Below are positions 887 to 63,096 of a DNA stretch of 64,000 nucleotides, piece by piece. A program made the translations under genes and the position numbers. The notes under the pieces were generated by a model, which worked only from the letters and a program-made list of their open reading frames with translations, was not told the DNA's origin and did not search any database. The DNA lies in contig NZ_CAMLHC010000004.1 of the NCBI RefSeq assembly GCF_946479755.1, positions 266,424-330,423 on the forward strand, given 5' to 3'. Origin of the DNA: an uncultured Chitinophaga sp. (GTDB lineage: Bacteria; Bacteroidota; Bacteroidia; Chitinophagales; Chitinophagaceae). The first letter of the stretch is position 1, and every line of letters begins with the position of its first letter.

Positions 887-3211
887 TCAGAAATTATACC
901 GGAAACCGAGGTTAAACCGGGCGCCGCTGCCTTTGATATAGGAATCCGTTCTCACCCGTGCCTGCGACATCACCGGGTAATAATCGGCATTCAGCAGGTT
1001 ATCCACACCCAGCCGGATAGAGGCGGCGGCGTTGAACTGGTAGGCGGTATACAGGTTGACGAGCGAAAAATCACTCACCGGCCCGTTGCCCAGGTCATAC
1101 TCTTTGGTATTGGGATTGGGATCGAAACGTTTCCGTACGCCGGAGTAGATGTAATACACCCCAAGGTCCCACTGTTGCAGCGGAGAATAATTCACATTGA
1201 CGGTCATCTTATCCGGTGTGATGCGGGTGGTAGGCAGCCATGTCTTCACCCCGTTGACGTCCTTTTTACCTTCCACATGGGTGTAAGCTGCATTGGCAGA
1301 GAGATTGGGAAGGAACTGATAACCCGCGGTGACTTCAAAACCCTGTACGCGTTCCGGCGCTCTCTCCGGGACGGCCACGCCGTTCACGTCTTTCAGGCTG
1401 GTACCGAGGTTGGAGGTGCTGATAAAATAAGAACCGGAAGCGTTGAATTTACCGATGTTACTGTTGAAACCCGCTTCGTAGTTATTGGTAATGATCGCTT
1501 TGGTTTCGATGGTATTGATGCTGGTGGCGCCATTGCTGACGGCCTTGGCCAGCCGAAGGGTACGGCCCAGGTCATACAGGGAGAAGCTCTGGGAATAGCT
1601 GACGAACGGGTTGAACGCCGGGAACCGGGTATACCGCAGCCCGGCATTGAACACCAGTGCTTCGTAAGGCAGATTGCCGCCCTTTACGAACACACCGCCG
1701 GCATAGTTACCAAACTTGATGGTAGTATAGTCAGGAATATCGAGCCGGATGTTTTCGTAACGCAGGCCTGCTTTCACGAGGAAGTCCCTGAACAGGTAGG
1801 TTTTCAGCTGTGCATAAGGCGCCAGGTTCTTCATGTTCATTTCCGGTACGAAAGGACGTCCGTCCGTGAGTGGCTGGGCTGTTTTATCGTTCAGTACGTC
1901 AACACCCCAGGTAACGTCGCCATGCAGGTTTGGATGGAAATTGAACAGCGTATTGAAGTTCACGCGGGCGCCCATTTTTTTGGAGGTAATGGCGGAATTG
2001 CCCGGTGGCGCATAGAAATCAGAATATTCAAAGACGGTGTAAAAGTCCTGGTAGTAGAGGTTTACGTTCAGCGATGTATTACGGAAGATATTTTTACTGG
2101 TAAAATTCACATAGGCGTTGTGGTTATAGGGCGTGCCTTGCTTGTCGCCCGGATTGGTGCCGATGATACCAACGATGGGCCGTTGCCCGAATTTACCTCC
2201 GGAGTCAACATAGCTGCTGTTCTGCATGGTCCGGTAATAGTTGTACATCACTTCCAGGCGGTTGTTGTCGTTGAAGTTGTATCCCAGTTTGGCGAACAGG
2301 TTTACGTTTTCGTTCTGGCTGAGCGACTGGAAAGGGGCTATCACCTGGCCTCCGGCGTCTTTGTTGACACCGGTTTGCTCGTAGGTACCGGCCACCACGT
2401 AGTCGAATTTATTGAGGCGGCCGCTGAACTGCTGCGCCACGCGTGCGCCGAGGCTGTTGGCCGCACTGGTGAGCGAGCCGCTGGCGCTGATGTCGGTGCT
2501 GCCGCTGAAACGTTTATTGGGATTGGCTTTGATGGTGATGAAATTGATGATACCGCCGTCGGCGCCGTTGCCATAAATGGCGGTGGAACCTTTGATCACT
2601 TCTACTCTTTCAATGACAGACACGTCGATGCTGCGCATGTCTTTATCGCCGTTGCGCAGCGGGGTGGATTGCGGGATACCGTCAATCATGATTAACATAC
2701 CGCGGCCACGCAAGGTTTGCCCCTTGTTGGTAGACGTATTGGTGCCCAGCGTAAGGCCCGGCACGTTCATGCTCAGCAGCTGGTTGATGTCGGTGGTGAT
2801 GGCGCTTTGTTCCCGCAGTTGTTTGCCGCTGATGATCGTGATGGAAGACGGGACGGTGCCGAGTGTTTCCCGGTTACGGCTGGCGGTGACTACTACTTCG
2901 TTCAGGCCTACGTCTGACGGTTGTATGGTAAGCGTCAGGGTGGTGATACTATCGGTGATGGTGACCGGCTGTTCCAGTGTGTTGTAGCCGATGCCGGTAG
3001 CAATCAGTTTGTAGCTGCCGGGTTTTATGTTGTTGATACTAAAGGTGCCGTCTGGACCGGAGAGCGCATGTTTCTGCGTTCCTGCGAGGTAGATGCGCAG
3101 CATTGGCACGGCTGTTTGCGCCGTGTCGCGGATGGTGCCCGTGAGTTTTTGTGCGCTTGTCTGTAAAGTAGCCAGGAGTGCTATAAAGCACAGTGCCAGG
3201 TATGGTTTCAT
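887..3211 (-). CDS. TonB-dependent outer-membrane receptor, probably iron/siderophore
   Basis: Energy-coupled outer-membrane importer of 774 residues. It has a signal peptide (about residues 1-20, ending before AQKLTG), a carboxypeptidase-regulatory-like domain (about 22-100), a plug domain starting near VVVTASRNRETLG, then a 22-strand barrel ending in an aromatic residue (NLGFRYNF). The ATG at 3211 is chosen over an in-frame TTG at 3217 because it lies 2 nt after the upstream stop (TGA-AA-ATG), which implies translational coupling to the PepSY gene. The pairing with a PepSY membrane protein is typical of ferric-siderophore uptake loci. The substrate cannot be read from sequence. It is not a SusC-type receptor and has no SusD partner. 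Confidence 0.9.
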   Translation of the reverse strand: MKPYLALCFIALLATLQTSAQKLTGTIRDTAQTAVPMLRIYLAGTQKHALSGPDGTFSINNIKPGSYKLIATGIGYNTLEQPVTITDSITTLTLTIQPSDVGLNEVVVTASRNRETLGTVPSSITIISGKQLREQSAITTDINQLLSMNVPGLTLGTNTSTNKGQTLRGRGMLIMIDGIPQSTPLRNGDKDMRSIDVSVIERVEVIKGSTAIYGNGADGGIINFITIKANPNKRFSGSTDISASGSLTSAANSLGARVAQQFSGRLNKFDYVVAGTYEQTGVNKDAGGQVIAPFQSLSQNENVNLFAKLGYNFNDNNRLEVMYNYYRTMQNSSYVDSGGKFGQRPIVGIIGTNPGDKQGTPYNHNAYVNFTSKNIFRNTSLNVNLYYQDFYTVFEYSDFYAPPGNSAITSKKMGARVNFNTLFNFHPNLHGDVTWGVDVLNDKTAQPLTDGRPFVPEMNMKNLAPYAQLKTYLFRDFLVKAGLRYENIRLDIPDYTTIKFGNYAGGVFVKGGNLPYEALVFNAGLRYTRFPAFNPFVSYSQSFSLYDLGRTLRLAKAVSNGATSINTIETKAIITNNYEAGFNSNIGKFNASGSYFISTSNLGTSLKDVNGVAVPERAPERVQGFEVTAGYQFLPNLSANAAYTHVEGKKDVNGVKTWLPTTRITPDKMTVNVNYSPLQQWDLGVYYIYSGVRKRFDPNPNTKEYDLGNGPVSDFSLVNLYTAYQFNAAASIRLGVDNLLNADYYPVMSQARVRTDSYIKGSGARFNLGFRYNF

Positions 3212-3213
3212 TT

Positions 3214-4290
3214 TCAAAGCTGATGTTTTTTAATGATGTACTTCCGGCGGTACCATATCAGGAAACCGGATATGGACAGGATGCCAGGTGCAAGGCCCAG
3301 AAGGGCGTACAGTATTTTAACAGGAATACCGCCATAGTTGCCGAAGTGCAGGGGCGCCATGGCGGCGTTGAATTTATCGCCGAAGGCGGCGTTGCTGAAA
3401 TTGATTGTCTTTTTTACCTGCCCGTTGACGTCGAAATGCACGGAGGAGCTATAGCGGCCCCAGATAGGTGCTTCGTAGGCATGCCCCAGGATGCGGACCG
3501 GGTCACCGGCTTTTTTAGGCGGACGGATGCCCATGGCTTCAAACCCGGGAATTTGCGCCGCGGCCTTGGTCAGCAGCGCTTCGTAGTCAATCGGAAGGGG
3601 AGCGCCTACATTGGGAAAAGGACCGGTGGTTTTCCGGTTCTCCAGTACTTTCAATTGCATCATGAAGCCGGTGAAGGCAATGAGGAGGTTAAAAAGCAGT
3701 GCCCAGACGCCCACAATGCGGTGCAGGTTGCGCCAGCGCCGGGTGCGGCTGCCCCATTCGGGCTTCAGGCGGAAGGTGAGCACTTTGTAGATTGACTTCC
3801 GGTATACCCAGATACCGGTGAGGAGGGAGGTAAACAGCAGGATGCTGACCACCAGCATTACTTTGGCGCCTGTTTTCCCGCTCAGCAGGGAGAAGTGCAG
3901 GTAGATCAGAAAACCCGAAAAATAGCCGGTATTGGAATGTTGGTGGATGACTTCCCCCGTGTAGGGGTTTAGGAAAAGATATACTTTATGATCGGGGCCA
4001 TATTCGGCCCTGACGATGGCTGGTTCTTCCGGTGTTTGCGGTAGCCGGGAGAAGAAGAGGTAGGGCGTGCCGGTTGGGAGTGACTTACCTGCTTGTTGCA
4101 ACAGTTCAAACAGCGGTTTCCGTTGTGTGCCTGGTGCGATGTGGTAGGTTTCATGATGCAGCGCTTCGTCTATTTCTTCGCTGAAAACCAGCAGGGTGCC
4201 TGTTATGCTGGCAAAAAGCAGCATAATGCCTACGATGAGGCCGGTAATGCGGTGAACAGTGAAAAGCTGTTTATGCCAGTATTGTTTCAA
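3214..4290 (-). CDS. PepSY-associated transmembrane protein (siderophore-locus type)
   Basis: Inner-membrane protein of 358 residues. Hydrophobic segments are near residues 15-38 (GLIVGIMLLFASITGTLLVF), about 140-160, about 190-215 and at the C-terminus, with PepSY-like extracytoplasmic stretches between them. Members of this family sit beside TonB receptors and are proposed to reduce iron or process siderophores in the periplasm. The N-terminal HKQLFTVHRITGL matches the usual start of the family, which supports the TTG start at 4290, preceded by AAGGAAA. First gene of a two-gene operon with the receptor. Confidence 0.85.
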   Translation of the reverse strand: MKQYWHKQLFTVHRITGLIVGIMLLFASITGTLLVFSEEIDEALHHETYHIAPGTQRKPLFELLQQAGKSLPTGTPYLFFSRLPQTPEEPAIVRAEYGPDHKVYLFLNPYTGEVIHQHSNTGYFSGFLIYLHFSLLSGKTGAKVMLVVSILLFTSLLTGIWVYRKSIYKVLTFRLKPEWGSRTRRWRNLHRIVGVWALLFNLLIAFTGFMMQLKVLENRKTTGPFPNVGAPLPIDYEALLTKAAAQIPGFEAMGIRPPKKAGDPVRILGHAYEAPIWGRYSSSVHFDVNGQVKKTINFSNAAFGDKFNAAMAPLHFGNYGGIPVKILYALLGLAPGILSISGFLIWYRRKYIIKKHQL

Positions 4291-52118: not shown

Positions 52119-53441
52119 ATGAAAGTGTTAAAATTTGGTGGAACCTCCGTGGGAAAACCAGAGCGCATGCATTCAGTAGCGCAACTGATCACAGCAGATA
52201 ATGATCAGAAAATTGTGGTACTGTCTGCCCTGTCAGGCACCACGAACGCACTCGTGGAAATCAGCCAGTCCTTGTCAGAAGGTAAGAAAGCACAGGCGAA
52301 GCAGCAGATAGACAAGCTGGAAAGCCATTACAGGTCTTTTTGCGATGAGCTGGTGAAGCAGGAGGCTGGTCGTGCCAGCGCTAAAGCCATCGTTGATGAA
52401 CACTTCGAATTTCTGAACATCATCCTGAAGATATCTTTCAATGAAGCTTTGAATAAAGATATCCTCGCACAGGGCGAACTGTTGTCCACCCGCCTGTTCT
52501 GCGTATACCTCGAAGAAGCCGGTGTGGCCGCTGTATTGCTGCCGGCGCTCGATTTCATGAGCATCGATGAATACGAAGAACCGGAAATCCCTAAAATCAA
52601 AATCAAACTGGGCAACCTGATCAACCAGCATAAAGGACAATCCGTTTTCATCACACAGGGTTATATCTGCCGCAATGCAAAAGGCGAAGTAGACAACCTG
52701 AAACGTGGTGGCAGCGACTATTCCGCTTCCCTGATCGGCGCAGCTATCCAGGCAGAAGAAATTCAGATCTGGACAGACATCGACGGTATGCATAACAACG
52801 ATCCGCGTGTGGTGAAAAAAACCTTCCCGATCGAGCAACTGTCATTCGACGAAGCTGCCGAGCTGGCTTACTTCGGCGCTAAAATTCTGCACCCTGCGTC
52901 TATCTGGCCCGCCCAGCATTTTAATATCCCGGTGAAGCTGCTCAATACCATGCAGCCGGAAGCGAAAGGTACTATCATCACTGAAATGCCGAATGGCAAC
53001 GGTGCGAAAGCCATCGCAGCGAAAGACGGTATCATCGCTATCAAAATCAAGTCCAGCCGCATGTTGCTGGCTTATGGCTTCCTCCGGAAAATATTCGAAG
53101 TATTTGAAAAATACCGCACCCCGATCGATATGATCACCACTTCCGAAGTGGCCGTATCCCTGACGATCGACAGCCAGACCCATCTGGACCAGATCCTGAA
53201 GGAACTGCAACCGTTTGGTACCGTGGAACTGGATCACCACCAGAGCATTGTTTCTATCGTGGGTAACGAAGTAGCTGCTACGCCTTCTATCATCACCAAA
53301 CTGTTTGATGCCATGGAAGGTATTCCTTTGCGGATGATCTCCTACGGCGGCAGCAGGCATAATATTTCCATCCTGGTCAACGGCCAGTTCAAGGAGAAGA
53401 CACTGCAGGTGCTGAATAAAGGGCTGTTTGGTTTGGAGTAG
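52119..53441 (+). CDS. lysC: Aspartate kinase (monofunctional)
   Basis: First step of Lys/Met/Thr synthesis. 440 residues. KFGGTSVGK (5-13) binds ATP and aspartate. LKRGGSDYSASLIGAAI and WTDIDGMHNNDPRVV are kinase-domain signatures. Two ACT domains fill the C-terminus (from about 305), with MITTSEVAVSLTID and a second fold around SIVGNEVAATPSI. There is no homoserine dehydrogenase fusion. Feedback control through the ACT domains is expected, but the effector is not readable. Confidence 0.93.
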   Translation: MKVLKFGGTSVGKPERMHSVAQLITADNDQKIVVLSALSGTTNALVEISQSLSEGKKAQAKQQIDKLESHYRSFCDELVKQEAGRASAKAIVDEHFEFLNIILKISFNEALNKDILAQGELLSTRLFCVYLEEAGVAAVLLPALDFMSIDEYEEPEIPKIKIKLGNLINQHKGQSVFITQGYICRNAKGEVDNLKRGGSDYSASLIGAAIQAEEIQIWTDIDGMHNNDPRVVKKTFPIEQLSFDEAAELAYFGAKILHPASIWPAQHFNIPVKLLNTMQPEAKGTIITEMPNGNGAKAIAAKDGIIAIKIKSSRMLLAYGFLRKIFEVFEKYRTPIDMITTSEVAVSLTIDSQTHLDQILKELQPFGTVELDHHQSIVSIVGNEVAATPSIITKLFDAMEGIPLRMISYGGSRHNISILVNGQFKEKTLQVLNKGLFGLE

Positions 53442-53468
53442 ACCGCTGCATCCCAACATTACTACATA

Positions 53469-53498
53469 AAAAGGGCGTGCCAACCGGTGCGCCCTTTT
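53469..53498. terminator. Terminator between lysC and the RES toxin gene
   Basis: AAAAGGGCG pairs with CGCCCTTTT around a 12-nt loop; usable from both convergent sides. Confidence 0.85.
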
Positions 53499-53501
53499 CA
53501 T

Positions 53502-53963
53502 TTATACTTTTCTCAGCCGCTGATCAAACATAAATGGCTGGGTGTCCGTAATTGTGATACGACCGGCATCCGGATGCTGCGGATTGATGAGATAGTTATT
53601 TTCTTCGGCAATGACTACGGAAGGAATTCTGAGCACGGCATAACGTGCGGTGTCCACCCATTCGTCGCCGATGGCCTGCAGGGCCGGAAACGGCGCCAGT
53701 GATTGCCAGCCGGAGGGAAGATCTTTTTTTGTAAGGACTTTGATGGCGATATCGTCGGGAATGTGAATGGTGGCGATACAAAAGTCCTGAATGATATTTT
53801 TGAGCGGAATATGCACCAATACTTCCAGCGCTGACAGCGCCCTGCTGCCGGCCGTGTATACGATCGAATGTCCCGTACTGTTCCACCGGCCGCCGTACAA
53901 ACGGGAGCCAGTGCCTGTCAGGTCATTGATATAGGCACATTTGCTGATCCTGTAAACATCCAT
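53502..53963 (-). CDS. RES-domain toxin
   Basis: 153 residues. RES toxins degrade or modify NAD+. The family residues appear as an Arg in MDVYRISKCAY or GGRWNSTG, a Glu in SRALSALEVLVHIP and a Ser in the C-terminal half. GSRLYGGRWNSTGHSIVYTA is the typical N-terminal block. The gene follows its antitoxin by 5 nt, the normal order for this system. Confidence 0.85.
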   Translation of the reverse strand: MDVYRISKCAYINDLTGTGSRLYGGRWNSTGHSIVYTAGSRALSALEVLVHIPLKNIIQDFCIATIHIPDDIAIKVLTKKDLPSGWQSLAPFPALQAIGDEWVDTARYAVLRIPSVVIAEENNYLINPQHPDAGRITITDTQPFMFDQRLRKV

Positions 53964-53968
53964 GATAG

Positions 53969-54421
53969 TTACGCGAATATTCCATGTTCAATGCGTCCCA
54001 GTTCGTCTTCAATCAGCTGGAAGCCGAAAGTGGTGTCTAACAGGGAAATAGGAAGTTGATAGTTGAAGGCGGGAAGCGGCGTGCGCATCCACTCCTTGAA
54101 GTTTTCCAGGCTGCCGAAAACTTCTGTACCCCGCTGGTAGAGCCGGGAAAGGAGGATAGCCCGCTCAGAGGTATCGGCAGACAGTTTGGCGTCGTCTGCA
54201 TAACGTTGCAGCGTTCTTTCCGAAATATGCAGCACCTGCGCCAGCTCTGCCAGTGAAAAAGAAAGCTGCCGGCTGAGGTTTACTAAGGCTCTTTTTAGCA
54301 CCCCACTGCGGGAAAGCTCAATAAAATCATAATATCCACTACCCGAAACGTACGCTGCACCCGGGTCTTCCACAATCATCAGGGTATTTTCCTGTACCTG
54401 ATATTTTCTTGCATGTTTCAT
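53969..54421 (-). CDS. Xre/MbcA/ParS-type antitoxin
   Basis: 150 residues. The helix-turn-helix is SFSLAELAQVLHISERTLQR. The C-terminal toxin-binding domain has AILLSRLYQRGTEVFGSLEN and FKEWMRTPLPAF. It neutralises the RES toxin and should repress the operon by binding the palindrome at 54428-54460. The ATG at 54421 is used. Confidence 0.87.
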   Translation of the reverse strand: MKHARKYQVQENTLMIVEDPGAAYVSGSGYYDFIELSRSGVLKRALVNLSRQLSFSLAELAQVLHISERTLQRYADDAKLSADTSERAILLSRLYQRGTEVFGSLENFKEWMRTPLPAFNYQLPISLLDTTFGFQLIEDELGRIEHGIFA

Positions 54422-54427
54422 AATTCC

Positions 54428-54460
54428 CGACATTTGACACAAAAATACAACAATTTGTCG
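54428..54460 (-). promoter_or_regulatory. Operator/promoter of the RES-Xre operon
   Basis: CGACATTTG (54428-54436) and CAATTTGTCG (54451-54460) form an imperfect inverted repeat flanking a minus-strand TATTTTTG -7 box (54447-54440). An antitoxin bound here would block RNA polymerase, consistent with autoregulation. Confidence 0.6.
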
Positions 54461-54500
54461 TGATTTGCATCTTTTCCGCTTTCTTTAGGAAAACTTAACG

Positions 54501-57449
54501 TTAGAATTTTTTATCCTCGAAATACCCGATTTTTTTCATTTGGTTGATTTCCAGGGTGATAACACCGTATTCAGCGATCGCTTTTCCCTGGAGGATATAA
54601 AAGCCGCCCTTCTGAAAAGGATATTGACGCAAGCTGTCGGGGAAATGAACGGTATCGATAAAATGTCCTTCCCGGTCGAGGAATGTGCCGAAACACATCG
54701 GTTCCCCCTTGGCGGTGCGCATGGGTTTGGTCGTCACCAGGTATCCCAGCGTGGTGACCGGCCGGTTAATATACCGGCCGAACTCACGGGCAGGGATATA
54801 CGCCGACTGGTCATGGTTCAGCACTTCAAAGGGAGATGCCAGCGGGAAGCCCAGAAGGTCTATTTCATCAAAAGCATCTTCGTGCTGATGGTAAGCCAGT
54901 TCCGGCAATTCACAGTTGACAGCGGCGGGTTTGAATAAGGACAGGTTGTGGATGGCGGCGCTTTGCTGACGTACTAAAAGGCTGCTTTTCCACAGCAGTT
55001 CTTTTTTGGTTTGACCGGTAAACTGAAAGCAACCAATCCGGATCAGCAATTCCAGCTGTTCCGCCCCGGGGGAAATGCGGTGGCAGAAATCCTCCAGGTG
55101 CAGGTAGGGCCCGCACAGGCGGCGCTCTTCGAGTATTCTTTCTGCGAGGGCCTGCTCCAGTCCTTCCACATGGATCAGGCCCACATATACGTCCTGTCCT
55201 TTAATATTGGTGGGATAGTCGCTGTTATTGATACAGGGCGGATGAATATGAACGCCGGTTTTTTTCAGTTCCCGGAAATACAGTTCACGGTTATAAAAGC
55301 CGCCGAAATTATTAATCACCGCCACCATAAATTCAGCGGGGAAATAAGTTTTCAGATAGAGGCTCTGATAGCTCTCCACCGCAAAGCTGGCGGAGTGGGC
55401 TTTGGAAAAAGAGAAATTGGCAAAACTGGCGATCTGCCGCCATACTTCCAGGGATACATCATACGGCCGCCCCAGTTGCGCGCAGTTGCTGAAAAAACGT
55501 TCCTGTATTTTTTCAAAGTCTTTCGACCCTCTGTATTTGCCTGCCATAGCGCGCCGCAGGGAGTCTGCATCAGCCAGCTCCATGTTGGCGTATTCATGTG
55601 CTACTTTGATCACATCTTCCTGGTACACCATAATGCCGAAGGTGTCGCTGAGCAACTCCCTGATAACAGGATGCAGGTACGTGACAGTATCGGGATGGCG
55701 GTAGCTGTGGATGTATTGTTTCATCATACCGGATTGCGCCACGCCGGGCCGGATAATAGAGCTGGCGGCCACGAGGGTGAGATAATTGTCGCATTCCAGT
55801 TTTTGCAGCAGCTGCCGCATAGCGGGCGATTCTATGTAGAAGCAGCCAATCGTGTTCACCTTTTTCAGGTTTTCCTTCACCTGCTCATCTACCATAAATG
55901 CTTTTACCTGGTGGATATCGATCTCCACCTGTTTGTTTTTCCGGATGATGTCAATGGCGTCGCGGATATGTCCCAGGCCACGCTGACTGAGGATGTCAAA
56001 TTTATACAGGCCGATGCGGTCTGCCTGGTGCATGTCCAGCTGGGCGGTACTGAATCCTTTGGGCGGCAGGTAGGTAGTGCAGTATCGATGAATGGGCGCA
56101 TCGCTGATGAGGATCCCGCCGGCATGAATGCTGAGGTGGTTGGGAAAAGATTTTTCCTGGTCCATTAGCCGGCTGAAGTGCTGGATCCTGCGCTGGATAT
56201 GGTCTTCATTCAGCTGTATGTTGAAGCCGTTTTCCAGTATCTGATCGATTTCTTTTTTAGGGAGACCATACACTTTGCCCATTTCCCGGATGATCGCATT
56301 GGTTTGAAAGGTAGTGACGGTGCCCAGCAGCGCGGTATGAGCATCCCCGTATTTATCAAACACATACCGGATGATAGCGTCGCGGTCGCGCCAGGAAAAA
56401 TCGATATCGAAATCCGGGGGTGAGGTGCGGTAGGGATTCAGGAAACGCTCAAAAAAGAGATTCAGTTCTATCGGGTCCACATCCGTTATTTTGAGGCAGT
56501 AGGCGATAATGGAGTTGGCGCCGCTGCCGCGTCCCACATAGAAAAATTGCCGTTCCTGCGCGTAGCGGATAATATCCCATGTGATCAGGAAGTACGCTTC
56601 AAATTCCTGTTGAGCTACGATATCCAGCTCTTTCTCAATGCGCCGTGCCGCTTCCGCATGATCTTTTCCGTAGCGGTATTCCATGCCCTGGTAAGCCAGT
56701 TGCCGGAGTAATGCCCGGTCTTCTTCCACGCTGCCCAGGAACGATTTGCGGTTGCGGGGTGTATGCAGTTCCATTTGCACCTCGCAGGTTTCGAGGATGC
56801 GCAGGGTGTTGCCCACAATATGCGGATACTGTTCAAAGTGTTCCACCATTTTGGCCGGATGGATGAACTGGTCGTGGATAGTGCCGGTGGTATGGGGTTC
56901 CAGCTGGGAGATCAGGATGTTCTGATCGATGGCGCGAAGTACGCGATGCAGTTCATAGTGATCATTGTCCTGGAAAGTGACCGGATGCATCACCACCAAC
57001 CGATGATGAATGCTGACGGTGTCTACACGGAAGAGTTTATTGAGGTCGCGTGGTTTGATGCCCAACAGTTCGTGTGGCTGCAGTTGAGCCGGCGCTACAG
57101 CGCCCCAGTTGTAGACAGCCCAGGTGCCGGGCAGGGCGGGGGCCCTGTCGGGGAAAGGTATTTCTTTGCTCAGGTGCTCAGAGAGAAAGCGGTTGATCTG
57201 ATGCCAGCCTTCCTGGTCGCGGGCGAGCAGCAGGTACATGAAAGTAGATTCGTTGCGGCATTCCAGGCCCAGTACAGGTTTTATAAGGTATTTGCGGCAA
57301 AGTTCCACAAATTCCCAGGCGTCGGAGGTGATGTTGATATTGGTGAGGGCCAGCGTGGTGATGCCCAGCTGAGCGGCTTTCCGCACCAGCATTTCGGCGG
57401 GCATGGTGCCATAGCGCAGACTGAAGAATGTTTTGCAGTTCAGGTACAT
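54501..57449 (-). CDS. Error-prone-type DNA polymerase III alpha subunit (DnaE2/ImuC-like)
   Basis: 982 residues, well short of replicative DnaE (about 1160 or more). The polymerase core is intact: VGRGSGANSIIAYCL and PPDFDIDFSW with catalytic D348 and D350, then helix-hairpin-helix and a C-terminal OB-like domain (GYLVTTKPMRTAKGEPMCF). The PHP domain has lost its metal site: the usual HLHxHSxYS start reads YLNCKTFFS. Small size and coupling to dinB (stop-to-ATG gap of 1 nt) point to translesion rather than replicative use. No imuA or imuB is seen beside it. The adjacent LexA-like operator region suggests damage-inducible expression. Confidence 0.85.
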   Translation of the reverse strand: MYLNCKTFFSLRYGTMPAEMLVRKAAQLGITTLALTNINITSDAWEFVELCRKYLIKPVLGLECRNESTFMYLLLARDQEGWHQINRFLSEHLSKEIPFPDRAPALPGTWAVYNWGAVAPAQLQPHELLGIKPRDLNKLFRVDTVSIHHRLVVMHPVTFQDNDHYELHRVLRAIDQNILISQLEPHTTGTIHDQFIHPAKMVEHFEQYPHIVGNTLRILETCEVQMELHTPRNRKSFLGSVEEDRALLRQLAYQGMEYRYGKDHAEAARRIEKELDIVAQQEFEAYFLITWDIIRYAQERQFFYVGRGSGANSIIAYCLKITDVDPIELNLFFERFLNPYRTSPPDFDIDFSWRDRDAIIRYVFDKYGDAHTALLGTVTTFQTNAIIREMGKVYGLPKKEIDQILENGFNIQLNEDHIQRRIQHFSRLMDQEKSFPNHLSIHAGGILISDAPIHRYCTTYLPPKGFSTAQLDMHQADRIGLYKFDILSQRGLGHIRDAIDIIRKNKQVEIDIHQVKAFMVDEQVKENLKKVNTIGCFYIESPAMRQLLQKLECDNYLTLVAASSIIRPGVAQSGMMKQYIHSYRHPDTVTYLHPVIRELLSDTFGIMVYQEDVIKVAHEYANMELADADSLRRAMAGKYRGSKDFEKIQERFFSNCAQLGRPYDVSLEVWRQIASFANFSFSKAHSASFAVESYQSLYLKTYFPAEFMVAVINNFGGFYNRELYFRELKKTGVHIHPPCINNSDYPTNIKGQDVYVGLIHVEGLEQALAERILEERRLCGPYLHLEDFCHRISPGAEQLELLIRIGCFQFTGQTKKELLWKSSLLVRQQSAAIHNLSLFKPAAVNCELPELAYHQHEDAFDEIDLLGFPLASPFEVLNHDQSAYIPAREFGRYINRPVTTLGYLVTTKPMRTAKGEPMCFGTFLDREGHFIDTVHFPDSLRQYPFQKGGFYILQGKAIAEYGVITLEINQMKKIGYFEDKKF

Positions 57450-57450
57450 G

Positions 57451-58665
57451 TTATCCTTTATAGTATGGCATGATGTCTTTTTTCGGTACGGGATGTTTTC
57501 TTTTGTCCGGCGGCACTACGTTGGTGCCTTTCAGGAGCATGTCCCAGCCGAAGCGGTTTTTGATATGATCGATGGCCTGGTAGAGGGAGATCATCTCCTG
57601 GCTGTCATCGAAGAGGTTGATCTGATAGTTGCCCTGTACGAGGTGGCTGAAACGTACGCCGATGAGGCGTACCAGCAGGCGGCGGTCGTATAGTTTTTTA
57701 AACAGGTCTTTTACTTTTTCCAGCAGCACATGATCGGAGCAGCTGTAGGGGATGGTCATTTGTTTGGTGACGGTTTCAAAATCGGAGTACCGTATTTTGA
57801 CGGTCACGCAGCCGGTCAGTTTGTTTTGCTGCCGCAGTTCAAACGCTATTTTTTCCGTCATCCGTACCAGTTCTGCGTGCAGGAATTCCATGTCGATGGT
57901 GTCTGCCGGGAAGGTGCTTTCCGTGGAGATGGATTTCTGTTCATAGTAGGGTACAACGGGGGAATCGTCGATGCCGTTGGCTTTGCGCCAGAGGGAGATG
58001 CCGTTTTTCCCCATCCAGGCTTCCAGCAGGGAAGGGGGTACTTCGCTGAGTATTTTTACGGTTTCCACGCCGCGCCGCCGGAGCTGTGCAGCGGTTTCTT
58101 TGCCTACCATGGGTATTTTCTCGATGGGCATGGGGGCGAGGAAATTTTTTTCAGCGCCGAACGGTATTTCCAGTTGCCCGTTGGGCTTGGCTTCATCGGT
58201 AGCTACTTTAGACACCAGTTTGTTGGAGGCGAGCCCGAAGGAGATGGGTAGTCCGGATTCTTTGATGATGGCTTTCCGCAGTTCCGTGGTCCATTTGAGG
58301 GAGCCGAAGAATTTATCCATGCCGGAGAGGTCGAGATAAAATTCGTCGATGGAGGATTTTTCGTATAGGGGTGCTTTGTCAGCGATGATACTGGTTACTT
58401 CGCGGGATTTCTCGCTGTACCGGTCCATGTCGCCGCTGCGGACGATGGCGTGAGGGCACAGGCGGAGGGCTGTTTTCATGGGCATGGCAGAGTGGATACC
58501 GTAGCGGCGGGCTTCATAGCTGCAGGCCGCTACCACTGCGCGGTCGCTGCTGCCGCCTATCAGCAGCGGCTTGCCTTTCAATTGGCTGTCATGCAGGCAT
58601 TCCACCGACACAAAAAAACAATCCAGATCGAAATGCGCGATCGCTCGCTGTTGTAATGTAATCAT
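57451..58665 (-). CDS. dinB: DNA polymerase IV (Y-family translesion polymerase)
   Basis: 404 residues. Catalytic acids are in FDLDCFFVSVE (Asp near residue 13) and SIDEFYLDLSG (Asp-Glu). ARRYGIHSAMPM is the finger-domain loop. A helix-hairpin-helix thumb (PMVGKETAAQLRRRGVETV) and little finger follow. QINLF near the C-terminus fits the beta-clamp-binding consensus. It is the first gene of a dinB-dnaE operon preceded by a tandem repeat array and a distant operator-covered promoter. Confidence 0.93.
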   Translation of the reverse strand: MITLQQRAIAHFDLDCFFVSVECLHDSQLKGKPLLIGGSSDRAVVAACSYEARRYGIHSAMPMKTALRLCPHAIVRSGDMDRYSEKSREVTSIIADKAPLYEKSSIDEFYLDLSGMDKFFGSLKWTTELRKAIIKESGLPISFGLASNKLVSKVATDEAKPNGQLEIPFGAEKNFLAPMPIEKIPMVGKETAAQLRRRGVETVKILSEVPPSLLEAWMGKNGISLWRKANGIDDSPVVPYYEQKSISTESTFPADTIDMEFLHAELVRMTEKIAFELRQQNKLTGCVTVKIRYSDFETVTKQMTIPYSCSDHVLLEKVKDLFKKLYDRRLLVRLIGVRFSHLVQGNYQINLFDDSQEMISLYQAIDHIKNRFGWDMLLKGTNVVPPDKRKHPVPKKDIMPYYKG

Positions 58666-58675
58666 GCTGCCCTGT

Positions 58676-59020
58676 TTTAAAGTATCGTTGTGCGGTCCTT
58701 CCTATAATATCGTTTATGCGGGCATAGTCAGTCCCGCATGTTTAAAGTGTTGTTATGCGTTCTCCTATAGTATCGTTTATGCCGGCATAATCAGTCCGCA
58801 TGTTTAAAGTGTTGTTATGCGTTCTCCTATAGTATCGTTTATGCCGGCATAATCCGTCCGCATGTTTAAAGTGTTGTTGTGCGTTCTCCTATAATATCGT
58901 TTATGCCGGCATAATCAGTCCGCATGTCTAACATGTCGTTATGCGGTCCTTCCTATAGCATCATTTATGCGGATATAGTTAGCCCTGCATGCTTAATGTA
59001 TCGTTGTGCGGTCCTTTCCC
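58676..59020. repeat. Tandem array of 62-65 bp repeats upstream of dinB
   Basis: Five units run 58676-58740 (65 bp), 58741-58802, 58803-58864, 58865-58926 (62 bp each) and 58927-58991 (65 bp), with a partial sixth from 58992. The three central units are nearly identical; the outer two are more diverged. Each unit begins TTTAAAGTGTTGTTATGCG or a variant. The central units hold the perfect palindrome TTATGCCGGCATAA; the first unit has ATGCGGG/CCCGCAT instead. Unit lengths are not multiples of three and units are directly adjacent, so this is neither a coding repeat nor CRISPR. Confidence 0.9.
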
Positions 59021-59174
59021 CTCCGTTTACCGGAGTAATCTTTTTCCTTGTTTGGGTGCATTACTGCAGTCCTTCGCTCTGTTTACAAGAGCGGTGTCTC
59101 CCTATTCATAAGCGATAAGCGGATGGCAGGCCGGGCGAAGGGTCAGCACGGATAGTGATCAGCAGGGCCTGCCA
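59021..59174. repeat. Stem-loops between the tandem array and the operators
   Basis: CTCCG-TTTAC-CGGAG (59021-59035) is followed on the plus strand by TAATCTTTTTCC. A second inverted pair is TGGCAGGCC (59124-59132) and GGCCTGCCA (59166-59174) with a 33-nt interior. No protein-coding gene is supported from 58666 to 59378. Confidence 0.5.
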
Positions 59175-59197
59175 GCCGTAATCACTTTGATCTGTTG

Positions 59198-59237
59198 TAA
59201 AGATACTAATTTATTTAGTTTTACTAAAATTATTAGC
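59198..59237 (-). promoter_or_regulatory. Twin LexA-like operators over a promoter pointing at dinB
   Basis: Two 15-bp palindromes of form RCTAA-N5-TTAGY lie at 59205-59219 (ACTAATTTATTTAGT) and 59223-59237 (ACTAAAATTATTAGC), centres 18 bp apart. On the minus strand a promoter TTTA (59228-59225), a 19-nt spacer and TATCTTTA (59205-59198) is buried under them. Binding should silence transcription toward dinB-dnaE. The same motif occurs twice at the S24 regulator promoter. Confidence 0.72.
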
Positions 59238-59253
59238 ATTTTTTTATTCAGAT

Positions 59254-59284
59254 TTTATTACCGGTTTCAATTTTCCTAACTTTG
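59254..59284 (+). promoter_or_regulatory. Promoter of the SdpI-like gene
   Basis: TTTA (59254-59257), a 19-nt spacer and TAACTTTG (59277-59284). The leader is about 90 nt. The operator pair lies 17 bp or more upstream and may influence this promoter too. Confidence 0.6.
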
Positions 59285-59378
59285 ATACAACATATCCGGG
59301 GGCCCATCTGTAGTAGATAAGAGAATGGAAATGAAGGTATAAGTAAAGCGTGAATGTTCATCTTTAAACCGTCATCTC

Positions 59379-60044
59379 ATGAAACAGACCAATGCTTCGA
59401 AGGAAATCTTTATCCTGGCTCTGTTACTCTTGCCCATGGCTTATCTGGCCGCTGTGTGGAACTACCTGCCTGCGACTATTCCTACCGATCAGGATGTATC
59501 TGAGCAGACGGAAGGCCGTAATGCATTTCTGTTACTGATGATTTTCCTTTTTGTGACCAATGCGCTGATTTACGCGCTGTTCCGTTTTATTCCCAGAACG
59601 GCGGAGGACAGCCCGGCGCAGGCCAGTGTGGAGCAGCGGGAGTTTTACCGCATCCGTTTCATAATACATACATACCTGGCGATTTTTACCTGTGTTTTTA
59701 TTTTTATGGCGAGCCGGGGAGAGCCTTTTGCGATGGAGCGCTGGGCTTTTGTGGGAGTTGGTTTGCTGATTGCGGCGATAGGACTATATTTGTGGAAGTT
59801 GCAGCTGGAACCGAACCATTATGTGGGTGTCCGTACGCCCTGGACACTGCAAAGCAAGGAGATCTGGCGGGAGACTCACCGTATGGCCGGTACGCTTTGG
59901 GTGAGTGCCGGGGTGGTGATGATGATAGCAGGTTTTTTCCTGTCGCTTGTTACCGGGGTGTTCCTGATCTTTTTTGCGGCGATCGTGCTGGCAGCGTTGC
60001 CGTACATCTATTCGTTCCGGTTATATAACAAGGACAAAGGATAA
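59379..60044 (+). CDS. SdpI-family membrane protein
   Basis: 221 residues, about six helices starting IFILALLLLPMAYLAAVWNY. The diagnostic block is EPNHYVGVRTPWTLQSKEIW followed by RETHRMAG, shared with the SdpI immunity and signalling protein of Bacillus. In Bacteroidota the function is not established. It is divergent from dinB and next to the LexA-like operators, so damage-linked expression is possible. A terminator follows at 60076. Confidence 0.82.
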   Translation: MKQTNASKEIFILALLLLPMAYLAAVWNYLPATIPTDQDVSEQTEGRNAFLLLMIFLFVTNALIYALFRFIPRTAEDSPAQASVEQREFYRIRFIIHTYLAIFTCVFIFMASRGEPFAMERWAFVGVGLLIAAIGLYLWKLQLEPNHYVGVRTPWTLQSKEIWRETHRMAGTLWVSAGVVMMIAGFFLSLVTGVFLIFFAAIVLAALPYIYSFRLYNKDKG

Positions 60045-60075
60045 GTTTATTCATAGTGGTCAATCATAACAAAAG

Positions 60076-60103
60076 AAAATGGCGGTCAACTGACCGCCAT
60101 TTT
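60076..60103. terminator. Bidirectional terminator
   Basis: A 13-bp perfect stem, AAAATGGCGGTCA/TGACCGCCATTTT, with a 2-nt gap at the tip, between convergent genes. Confidence 0.92.
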
Positions 60104-60123
60104 CACGTTAAATAAGTTTGTGC

Positions 60124-60570
60124 TTAGAACCAGTTAGCACCCAGCGCCTGACGGAAAGGCCATGGAATAAGGGCCAGTATCAGGATGAATGCGATCCCGT
60201 AGAATATAAGGGCCAGCTTGTGTTTCTGGGCATCGGAAGTAGCTTTCTTTACTTTGGATTTGCCGATGTGCACCAGGGCAATGGCAATCACGGCCATCAG
60301 GGTATGTTCCACCGTGAAAAAGCGGAGCGCGGAATCTTTCATCGCGGCGCCCATGTTAGCCAGTCCGGCTTTTGCTTTCTCGCTAAATACAAAATATAAC
60401 AGCAGTCCCACCAGCAGCTGAATATCGCAGAAGATCATAAAAAAGAGTCCCGCTTTATTGTCGGCCGCTGTGAATGGGGTTTTTCCGGAAACGCCTTTAA
60501 ATGCGCGGATCACTGCCCAAAGCCCAGCCAATACGATTGCCCATCTCAGAATAGAATGTAGATGTACCAT
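60124..60570 (-). CDS. Four-helix membrane protein of unknown function
   Basis: 148 residues with four predicted helices: LRWAIVLAGLWAVIRAF, AGLFFMIFCDIQLLVGLLLY, TLMAVIAIALVHIG and LALIFYGIAFILILALIPW. Histidines at MVHLHS, VEHT and VHIG lie near helix ends, which recalls small haem-binding cytochrome b-like proteins, but I cannot confirm haem ligation. Single gene, divergent from the S24 regulator with about 110 nt between them. Confidence 0.65.
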   Translation of the reverse strand: MVHLHSILRWAIVLAGLWAVIRAFKGVSGKTPFTAADNKAGLFFMIFCDIQLLVGLLLYFVFSEKAKAGLANMGAAMKDSALRFFTVEHTLMAVIAIALVHIGKSKVKKATSDAQKHKLALIFYGIAFILILALIPWPFRQALGANWF

Positions 60571-60618
60571 AACAAGTTGATTTTACCGGGCAAAAATAAG
60601 CGAAGCGTCTTGAATATA

Positions 60619-60676
60619 TTTGGGATTTTATAAAATTATTTGCTAATTTTGTTAGCAAGGTACTAAATTATTTAGG
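60619..60676 (+). promoter_or_regulatory. Promoter with twin autoregulatory operators of the S24 regulator
   Basis: TTTG (60619-60622), a 21-nt spacer and TAATTTTG (60644-60651). Two RCTAA-N5-TTAG[YG] palindromes sit at 60642-60656 (GCTAATTTTGTTAGC) and 60662-60676 (ACTAAATTATTTAGG), centres 20 bp apart. The first covers the -7 box; the second ends 2 nt before the start codon. This is a classic autorepression layout. Confidence 0.75.
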
Positions 60677-60678
60677 TT

Positions 60679-61431
60679 ATGTCCGTAGTATGCCAGAATT
60701 TAAAATATCTGCGTAAGCAAAAAGGCTGGACGCAACAGGAGTTTGCAGACAAACTGGGTATCAAGCGTTCCCTGCTGGGTGCCTATGAAGAGGAACGTGC
60801 AGAGCCTCGCACGGAAGTGCTGGAACAGGTCAGCGACATGTTCCGGGTTTCCATTGACGACCTGCTCCGCCGGGACCTGGGCTCCCAGAAAGACAGTTTC
60901 CTGGAGAAACGCCGTCAGCAGAAACTGGGCAATGCCCGTCAGGCTATCCAGTTTGTGCCGGTAAAAGCTGCCGCCGGTTACCTGGCCGGTTATAACGATG
61001 ACGAGTTTATCGAGGAACTGAATACGTTTACCCTGCCAATGCTGGGCGCCGGCGACTACCGCGCTTTCGAAATCGCCGGGGATTCCATGCTGCCTGTTCC
61101 TTCCGGCTCTGTGATCGTATGTCACAAAGTAGACGGCTGGGAAGAGATCAAGAACAATGAAACCTATGTGGTGGTGACTTCCCGCGAAGGTATCGTCTTC
61201 AAGAGGGTGCTGAAAAGCAACCGCGCCAAGTCAAGGATCACACTGGTGTCTGATAATCCCCAGTTTGAGCCCTATCCGGTGGAAATGGAAGAGGTACTGG
61301 AACTGTGGCAGTCTGATGCGGTGATCAGCAAATCCAACCAGCAGAGCCGCATGAGCGTTAACCACCTGGCCGACATGGTCAGCCACCTTCAGGACCAGGT
61401 AAGCCTGCTGAAAAAGAAAATCAAGGACTAA
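60679..61431 (+). CDS. LexA-like regulator: XRE helix-turn-helix with S24 self-cleaving domain
   Basis: 250 residues. The N-terminal XRE domain (about 6-62) has GWTQQEFADKLGIKRSLLGA. The C-terminal S24/LexA peptidase has nucleophile S136 (EIAGDSMLPV) and lysine K175 (IVFKRVL). A candidate Ala-Gly scissile bond is A99-G100 (VKAAAGYLAGY). Spacings of 37 and 39 residues closely parallel LexA (35 and 37). A C-terminal helix rich in Gln/Lys could aid oligomerisation. It should repress its own gene and dinB-dnaE and be inactivated through RecA-stimulated autocleavage. The DNA-binding domain is XRE, not the LexA winged helix, which explains an operator unlike known SOS boxes. Confidence 0.85.
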   Translation: MSVVCQNLKYLRKQKGWTQQEFADKLGIKRSLLGAYEEERAEPRTEVLEQVSDMFRVSIDDLLRRDLGSQKDSFLEKRRQQKLGNARQAIQFVPVKAAAGYLAGYNDDEFIEELNTFTLPMLGAGDYRAFEIAGDSMLPVPSGSVIVCHKVDGWEEIKNNETYVVVTSREGIVFKRVLKSNRAKSRITLVSDNPQFEPYPVEMEEVLELWQSDAVISKSNQQSRMSVNHLADMVSHLQDQVSLLKKKIKD

Positions 61432-61811
61432 AGAAGGAGTTGTTTGCAGCAGTGTTGTGCTGGTGGGCATTATTGCCGCAGCGCACAGGTATTGTTGTGG
61501 GCCTGGTAGAAGCGGGTAGGAGTTTGCAGGGGCCTGTACCCTTTTAAACGCTGTTTCATCCACTGCCACCCTCCGGCAGTGCCCGGCGCGCCTCCGTTTG
61601 CTGTTTGGCTACCAATGTACGGTTGGTCTCCATGGTCTTGGTGCCGGGGGCACCTTTGGCTTGCCGGAATGCCGGTAAAACACCCGTATTAAAATGGTAT
61701 TTCTTCGAAAAAAGCCCGGACGCTGAAGGCGCATAAGCGATTCATTTCCGGGGATTTAAGCATAACATAAAAAGGGTGGAAAGAAAAAAAAGACAACAGG
61801 CCGGTTTGGTT
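61432..61811. other. Non-coding gap between the S24 regulator and rpsU
   Basis: About 440 bases precede rpsU, including its promoter. A 7-bp hairpin CACTGCC-ACCCTCC-GGCAGTG sits at 61561-61581 without a T tail. The GC-rich middle leaves two minus-strand frames open, with protein-like runs (NTGVLPAFRQAKGAPGTK; YRPLQTPTRFYQAHNN) that would need a frameshift to join. No start, family or promoter supports a gene; a decayed gene or repeat is possible. Confidence 0.35.
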
Positions 61812-61842
61812 TTTGTTTTTATAAAATGTTGTCTTATCTTTG
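61812..61842 (+). promoter_or_regulatory. Promoter of rpsU
   Basis: TTTG (61812-61815), a 19-nt spacer and TATCTTTG (61835-61842): ideal match, 28 nt before the start codon. Confidence 0.85.
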
Positions 61843-61870
61843 CATTCCTAAAAAATAAGAGGCAAAAATT

Positions 61871-62068
61871 ATGTTGATCATTGATTCTAAAGATTGCGAA
61901 AACATAGACAAGGCGCTTAAAAAATATAAAAAGAAATTTGAGAAAGCACGCATCCTGCTGCAACTCAGATCACGCCAGTCTTTTACTAAACCATCTGTAA
62001 AACGCCGTACACAGGTGTTGAAAGCTGTTTACAAACAACAGCTGGCCAGTGGTAAATTGGAAGCTTAG
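61871..62068 (+). CDS. rpsU: 30S ribosomal protein S21
   Basis: 65-residue basic protein near the 30S platform. KDCENIDKALKKYKKKFEKA and LRSRQSFTKPSVKRR follow the S21 pattern. In several Bacteroidota, S21 with S18 and S6 shields the anti-Shine-Dalgarno tail of 16S rRNA, which agrees with the weak Shine-Dalgarno sites in this window. Strong promoter and terminator make it a single-gene unit. Confidence 0.93.
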   Translation: MLIIDSKDCENIDKALKKYKKKFEKARILLQLRSRQSFTKPSVKRRTQVLKAVYKQQLASGKLEA

Positions 62069-62108
62069 TCTGTTGTAGCCATCACAGGCTTATCAACTCA
62101 AAATATTT

Positions 62109-62154
62109 GATGATTGTAAGGTTATTTAATAACTTTACAATCATCAATCTTTTT
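62109..62154 (+). terminator. rpsU terminator, overlapping the apparent 5' end of the xerC frame
   Basis: GATGATTGTAAGGTTATT (62109-62126) and AATAACTTTACAATCATC (62128-62145) are inverted with one mismatch, followed by AATCTTTTT. Because this stem covers ATG 62110, the recombinase probably starts downstream of it. Confidence 0.8.
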
Positions 62155-62157
62155 GCG

Positions 62158-63096
62158 TTGAACGAAGTATTATATTCCTTAGCCGAGCGATTCATCTCCT
62201 ATATTCAGCTCGAAAAGCGATACTCAGAGCACACCTGCACCGCCTATCGCAATGACCTCCTTCAATTTTTTGACTATACTACGGCTGCCTACGGTCCTGT
62301 GACCATAGGGGACGTTACGCATATCATGGTGCGTAGCTGGCTGGCGAGCCTCATGGAAGATGCCATGACCGCCAAGAGCGTTAACCGCAAGATCTCCACC
62401 CTAAAATCCTTTTTTAAATTCTGTATCCGTCAGGAGCTGCTGCAACAGACGCCGATGGCCAAAGTCGTGGCGCCTAAAATCAGCCGCCGCCTGCCGGGGT
62501 TTATCGACGAGAAAGGGATGAAGGCACTGGAAGATAACCGCAGCCCTGTTTCCGTGACCACCCCCGTTATTTTTGCGGATGATTTCGAAGGAACCACCCA
62601 CCGACTGATCTTTGAGATCTTTTATCAGACCGGTATCCGTTTGTCGGAACTGATCTCTCTGCAGGAGTTCCGGGTAGATAAGAGCAACCTGTCGATAAAA
62701 GTGATGGGTAAAGGAGGGAAGGAGCGGATTATCCCGATCAGCCAGCAGCTGTGCGTGCAGCTCACTGCCTATATGGAGCAGAAGCGGCGTGAACTGGAAG
62801 AATTTGAGCCGGCGGTGTTGCTGGTGCATCCGCACAGCGGTCAGCGGTTGTATCCCAAGTACGTATACCTGATGATACGCAAATACCTGACAGACCATGA
62901 AATTACTACCTACAGGAAAAAAAGTCCGCACTTACTGCGACATACTTTCGCCACGCATCTGACGAATAACGGGGCCGACCTGAAAGCGGTCAAGGACCTG
63001 TTAGGCCACGCCAGTCTTACGTCTACACAGATCTACACACATACTACCATCGAGCAGTTGAAGAAGGTATATCAGCAGGCGCACCCGAAGGCGTAG
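62158..63096 (+). CDS. XerC/XerD-type tyrosine recombinase
   Basis: 312 residues from a TTG at 62158 (an ATG at 62110 lies inside a terminator stem and is less likely). The N-terminal SAM-like DNA-binding domain has RYSEHTCTAYRNDLLQFFDY. The catalytic set is present: Arg in GIRLSELISL, Lys in GKGGKERIIP, His-x-x-Arg in SPHLLRHTFATHL, His in LLGHASLTSTQ and the tyrosine nucleophile in IYTHTT. Length and motifs fit the chromosome-dimer resolvases rather than a phage or integron integrase, and no att-like repeats flank it. Confidence 0.9.
   Translation: MNEVLYSLAERFISYIQLEKRYSEHTCTAYRNDLLQFFDYTTAAYGPVTIGDVTHIMVRSWLASLMEDAMTAKSVNRKISTLKSFFKFCIRQELLQQTPMAKVVAPKISRRLPGFIDEKGMKALEDNRSPVSVTTPVIFADDFEGTTHRLIFEIFYQTGIRLSELISLQEFRVDKSNLSIKVMGKGGKERIIPISQQLCVQLTAYMEQKRRELEEFEPAVLLVHPHSGQRLYPKYVYLMIRKYLTDHEITTYRKKSPHLLRHTFATHLTNNGADLKAVKDLLGHASLTSTQIYTHTTIEQLKKVYQQAHPKA

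Follow-up and report, generated by a model that had tools for sequence, protein, structure and literature searches.

The closest described counterparts of the locus considered here are the 'non-canonical LexA' repressors of Bacteroidetes, including Chitinophagaceae, whose operator and regulon were reported by Sanchez-Osuna et al. in 2021 (PMC8565304). These are S24 repressors with a CI-type HTH, for which gel shifts with mutated sites were presented for P. actiniarum. Their operator, CTAA-N5-TTAG, was found upstream of umuDC, recA, recN, dinB, ruvB and splB, and in several species also before imuA-imuB-dnaE2 and others, with two or more sites in several promoters; induction by mitomycin C was documented in other species, and the regulons are large in Chitinophagaceae (PMC8565304). 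No further paper on the circuit came to light in the open-access literature searched.

The initial annotation of the window (the whole 64-kb stretch of DNA analysed here) proposed an SOS-type circuit and left open whether its operator had already been described in this phylum; it has, as CTAA-N5-TTAG, and since operator, repressor type and regulon all appear in the text of that paper (PMC8565304), the circuit interpretation is right but not new. Judged by sequence comparison, we consider it highly likely that the locus is the Chitinophaga copy of this system, which it matches on the features described. As far as we could see, the novelty lies in the quantitative detail gathered for a single genus and in a candidate element of the leader.

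The locus and its described relatives

The features of the locus are as follows (operators are given without strand).

60679..61431, + strand: repressor gene, 250 aa; HTH_3 at residues 8-62, Peptidase S24 at 105-205, A99-G100, S136/K175
60642..60656: regulator operator 1, GCTAATTTTGTTAGC, exact match to RCTAA-N5-TTAGY; contains the -7-like TAATTTTG
60662..60676: regulator operator 2, ACTAAATTATTTAGG, one mismatch to RCTAA-N5-TTAGY (TTAGG end)
60619..60651, + strand: putative regulator promoter (TTTG, 21 bp, TAATTTTG), conserved in relatives; assigned by what we take to be the consensus
59205..59219: dinB-side operator, promoter-proximal, ACTAATTTATTTAGT, exact match to RCTAA-N5-TTAGY
59223..59237: dinB-side operator, promoter-distal, ACTAAAATTATTAGC, exact match to RCTAA-N5-TTAGY
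59198..59205, - strand: -7-like element TATCTTTA of the dinB-dnaE promoter, abutting the operator; assigned by the same presumed consensus
59108..59188, - strand: leader hairpin, a candidate RNA structure
58676..58970, - strand: 62-bp tandem repeat, 4.7 copies, in the dinB leader
57451..58665, - strand: dinB, Y-family polymerase, 404 aa
54501..57449, - strand: dnaE-type DNA polymerase III alpha subunit, 982 aa, 1 bp behind dinB

Re-reading of the sequence places four 15-bp palindromes in two pairs, as first annotated, and a re-scan agrees that three match exactly while the fourth ends in TTAGG. The CTAA-N5-TTAG core occurs four times in the window, always within the two promoters; shuffled windows held a mean of 0.75 (four were reached by one of 100), and none of 100 shuffles contained a tandem pair, against two in the window. 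With one mismatch to RCTAA-N5-TTAGY tolerated, the seven occurrences in the window are not above the 5.56 expected by chance, so that the signal is carried by exact matching together with pairing. The core of the motif as first written is thus borne out, whereas its R/Y flanks appear inessential, given that dyad-adjacent substitutions had no effect on binding (PMC8565304).

Regulator operator 2 ends 2 bp 5' of the ATG at 60679. Further upstream, TTTG at 60619-60622 and TAATTTTG at 60644-60651, the latter inside operator 1, fit what we take to be the Bacteroidetes -33/-7 promoter consensus, and this arrangement, with its 21-bp spacer, is well conserved among relatives. On the other side, the promoter-proximal operator abuts the minus-strand TATCTTTA, so that, under this presumed consensus, the two pairs overlap or abut promoter elements, in line with the initial annotation. 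In many relatives that operator abuts a TAnnTTTG-like element, unlike the -7 of the window. As operators that overlap or abut -7 elements occupy the usual place for repression, the layout would be compatible with that mode of action.

The repressor itself matches HTH_3 (PF01381, 1.2e-14) and Peptidase S24 (PF00717, 9.8e-10); PF01726, the winged-helix DNA-binding domain of LexA, is not among its Pfam matches. The initial description of a protein with LexA-like A99-G100, S136 and K175 and an XRE DNA-binding domain therefore holds, with the residues where they were placed and HTH_3 assigned by Pfam. These four residues are kept in 67, 67, 67 and 66 of 68 aligned proteins respectively, and the Ala-Gly bond and Ser-Lys dyad are invariant in an alignment of 21 rows. 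An AlphaFold2 model of middling quality (mean pLDDT 78.8, pTM 0.50) has as its closest PDB folds the lambda-186 hybrid (best), lambda and LexA repressors, with low full-length TM-scores; by sequence, the PDB yielded matches to the HTH domain only. A C-terminal helix is predicted at residues 227-249. Comparison with named relatives puts the window in Chitinophaga, close to C. varians, C. eiseniae and C. fulva, with which the regulator is 99-100% identical over its best segment.

With the non-canonical LexA of Bacteroidetes (Pontibacter actiniarum, WP_025606010.1) the Chitinophaga system shares the operator core, the HTH_3 and S24 domains, the Ala-Gly bond and Ser-Lys dyad, the additional helix at the C terminus that LexA and CI lack (here a prediction), self-regulation, and targets such as dinB, umuD, recA, recN, splB, imuA, SRAP, radC and topoisomerase IV (PMC8565304). 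Nothing essential sets it apart from the group as described in the text of that paper. Among the conserved target promoters scanned in Chitinophaga, almost all have a pair of exact sites spaced by 18-23 bp, and in some clades the leader of dinB contains a conserved hairpin. Neither the spacing rule nor the hairpin was met in the text consulted or elsewhere in the open-access literature searched.

Canonical LexA likewise has the S24 domain, Ala-Gly bond, Ser-Lys dyad, SOS targets and self-regulation; here, a phage-type HTH_3 replaces its winged helix and the operator is another one. The HTH type, the S24 domain and the tandem operators, which lambda also has, recall CI-type phage repressors, from which the Chitinophaga locus differs in being chromosomal and kept genus-wide, with repair genes as its targets. 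HdiR and UmuDAb are also non-LexA S24 regulators of error-prone polymerases, but with minimal regulons, in other bacterial families and of separate origins (PMC8565304).

Targets and conservation within the genus

Single sites proved a poor guide to the regulon. In the nearest genome (G001), RCTAA-N5-TTAGY occurs at 17 places against 25 for a reversed control, which is no excess; nine of the 17 precede genes of the regulon, one of them a topoisomerase-type gyrB/parE, and eight do not precede a recognised repair gene. The single-motif scan was therefore dropped as too weak a test, and a pair pattern was used instead (two exact cores 16-25 bp apart, the reversed pattern serving as control), with gene starts within 700 bp assigned by tblastn. 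In 19 genomes of the genus Chitinophaga this returned 84 pairs and no control match. From the window's own genome, the target promoters covered are those of dinB-dnaE and the regulator.

The regulator or SOS-type and repair genes follow 79 of the 84 pairs, so that the enrichment at repair genes for which the initial annotation had proposed to look is seen in relatives. These 79 pairs divide as follows, with imuA assigned below the NCBIfam cut-off and the TPR-recN order read in G001.

regulator, 19; dinB-like, 18; splB-like radical SAM, 17
imuA, 8; umuD, 7; TPR gene then recN, 7
UDG-linked radical SAM, 2; its DUF4130 partner, 1

Of the other five, one stands before radC, two before a 2'-5' RNA ligase-like gene and one before an unnamed gene; the fifth is the pair in G015 on the side of the sdpI-like gene. 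Spacings were 18 (13 pairs), 19 (8), 20 (13), 21 (24), 22 (4) and 23 bp (22); none of the 84 pairs was spaced by 16, 17, 24 or 25 bp. At recA, an exact core was present in all but one of the 18 loci read (17), accompanied by a one-mismatch site 29-30 bp upstream (21 bp in two genomes); the remaining locus has two one-mismatch sites. Widening the spacing to 26-56 bp gave nine pairs in the 19 genomes against two control matches; seven of the nine, spaced by 55-56 bp, seem to represent a single conserved location. Order-wide, 17 pairs were present in 11 of 79 genomes, a set that includes G001, and five genomes had a control match, which indicates that such dense exact pairing does not extend to the order as a whole. 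PF01726 (LexA_DNA_bind) was found in none of the 19 Chitinophaga-genus genomes, a control search being positive in 10 of 14 genomes.

Some further arrangements were seen in these genomes. The 2'-5' RNA ligase-like gene lies behind a pair in G006 (L212) and G010 (L209) and behind a single site in G001 (L170), and is by its position a possible extra target. In G001, an exact pair of the 55-56 bp type (contig 21, 1509292-1509360, L169) precedes an unnamed 209-aa gene, with similar pairs in G003, G005, G012, G017, G018 and G019. A 165-aa gene without a Pfam match (L166, 3553-4050, - strand) sits between umuD and a SRAP gene, the three apparently forming one operon behind an operator pair; the order is similar in G012.

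Conservation was followed at regulator loci in named genomes, of which 62 were found and 53 counted (51 titled Chitinophaga, one Flavihumibacter MAG and one [Flexibacter]; 1.09 Mb of DNA). The motif is indeed conserved in orthologous promoters, a point on which the first reading of the DNA had been staked: every one of the 53 loci carries an exact regulator pair (sites 20 bp apart in 38, 23 bp in 12, 21 bp in two and 22 bp in one), and 51 carry an exact dinB-side pair (18 bp in 34, 19 bp in 17). Outside both pairs, the same DNA holds five exact cores, against 16 matches to the reversed control pattern. The genes beside the regulator (sdpI-like and 148-aa) are the same throughout. Beyond the 53, L082 and L083 have the exact regulator pair, L085 has exact cores without it, and L087 has none.

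The gene dinB was found at 50 of the 53 loci. Three lack it near the regulator, two of which (L057, L064) keep the dinB-side pair and one (L062) has neither; L077 has dinB and only one exact core. In G015 (L214) the pair is likewise kept, dinB-dnaE was not found beside it, and an sdpI-like gene is adjacent. Such pairs without dinB (L057, L064, L214) may be relics, or may control the neighbouring sdpI-like gene.

Behind dnaE, on the same strand and at 58 bp, lies a RES/Xre toxin-antitoxin pair (53502-54442, - strand), both genes of which are present at 24 of the 53 named loci; a promoter-like TATTTTTG (54440-54447) falls within the gap. From its position the pair may be transcribed by read-through of the SOS transcript, or, given that element, be expressed independently.

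The dinB leader

The dinB start at 58665 is about 540 bp from the nearer operator, against 24-374 bp in 49 relatives measured, and the intervening leader contains the candidate hairpin and the tandem repeat. The repeat is absent from seven of nine other leaders tested; in C. eiseniae (L032) the same place is taken by a 54-bp repeat of unrelated sequence. Hairpins of two main groups occupy this position in relatives.

Group 1, the window and 17 named loci: L031-L036, L038-L041, L043, L044, L047, L048, L055, L066, L084
Group 2, six loci: L049, L050, L052, L053, L056, L060

Group 1 has near-invariant arms and a variable loop, and its covariation is uninformative, since 10 of 11 inner pairs never vary and the observed values were often met by shuffles. 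The group 2 hairpin is different and longer, with six of 30 pairs changed on both sides; its covariation score, from six related sequences only, was reached by none of 500 shuffles. Chosen segments fold with z of -2.64 (window), -3.24 (L038), -6.20 (L049), -8.90 (L053) and -2.16 (L059, a third type). Eleven whole dinB leaders of 87-374 nt ranged from -5.73 to +0.66, four lying above -1, one of these being the full 374-nt G001 leader, in which the hairpin is diluted.

By pattern, the group 1 hairpin occurs in five of 19 genomes, in one copy each and always at dinB, and on that basis was rejected as a dispersed repeat. A covariance model, applied to no more than 150 of the 1257-4170 candidates in each genome, gave further matches on G014 contig 41 (E 4e-4) and weak ones elsewhere (E 0.1-1). 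The group 2 hairpin was found by pattern once, at dinB, in one of the 19 genomes (G011), on which alone its uniqueness rests. Rfam gave no match over 53000-62200.

That such a hairpin might be a general feature of SOS leaders was rejected: none of the seven recN-operon leaders folded better than its shuffled versions (z -0.85 to +1.84), and the same held for the single imuA leader and the single UDG-type leader examined. The unevenness of the whole-leader scores weakens the case for the dinB hairpin too, and 13 loci (L068-L079 and L081), whose leaders measure about 25-35 nt, do without it, so that it cannot be essential to the circuit. We offer only tentatively, and would ourselves sooner doubt than accept, the idea that the polymerase operon is under two layers of control, in which paired repressor dimers about two helical turns apart are joined by a structured 5' leader RNA that adds post-transcriptional control.

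Mode of action and competing readings

We propose that paired CTAA-N5-TTAG sites probably allow a phage-like repressor to silence two error-prone DNA polymerases along with its own gene. The claim with which the analysis began, that a LexA-like repressor controls its own gene and translesion polymerases through an operator type of its own, finds support in conservation across the genus, in the genome-wide targets and in the tested published family. Repressor dimers would bind CTAA-N5-TTAG, two to each tandem pair, covering the -33 to -7 promoter region on the dinB-dnaE side and the -7 element and start-codon region on the regulator side; repression, along with any cooperation between the two dimers, is what we infer for this locus. 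RecA filaments on damaged DNA would then induce the repressor to cut itself at A99-G100 through its S136/K175 dyad, and the resulting loss of dimers would allow expression of the repressor, dinB-dnaE and other repair genes, until newly made repressor restores the off state.

A regulator of the same family could act otherwise here, for instance by activating its targets, or by repressing them without RecA-dependent cleavage. For the published group, activation cannot be excluded without data from a non-cleavable mutant (PMC8565304); set against this, the scissile bond and dyad are kept in 66-67 of 68 proteins and the operators overlap or abut -7 elements, the usual place for repression, so we regard a different mode of action as improbable. 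Less probable by some way is a resident prophage CI-type repressor that lies near dinB by chance, a reading that would account for the phage-repressor-type HTH and for the lambda-186 hybrid repressor as best fold match. It is largely refuted by the identical neighbours of the regulator at all 53 named loci, by the 79 of 84 pairs in relatives that precede the regulator or repair genes, and by the surroundings, in that no phage family appeared among the neighbours examined by Pfam-type domain matches in 52-64 kb of the window.

It might also be argued that the operators are chance AT-rich palindromes in promoters, as the one-mismatch motif in the window and the single sites in G001 are no more frequent than expected. 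Pairs tell otherwise, with two in the window against none in 100 shuffles and 84 against no control match in 19 genomes, and their retention at 51-53 of 53 loci effectively refutes a chance origin, to which we give almost no credence.

Returning to the repressor circuit as the preferred reading, its regular paired-operator layout makes the target genes easy to find by sequence. Should the leader hairpin be functional, it would be an additional means, at the RNA level, of restraining or enhancing mutagenic polymerases. At the scale of the genus, it is very probably a phage-type repressor, and not canonical LexA, that runs the SOS response in this lineage.
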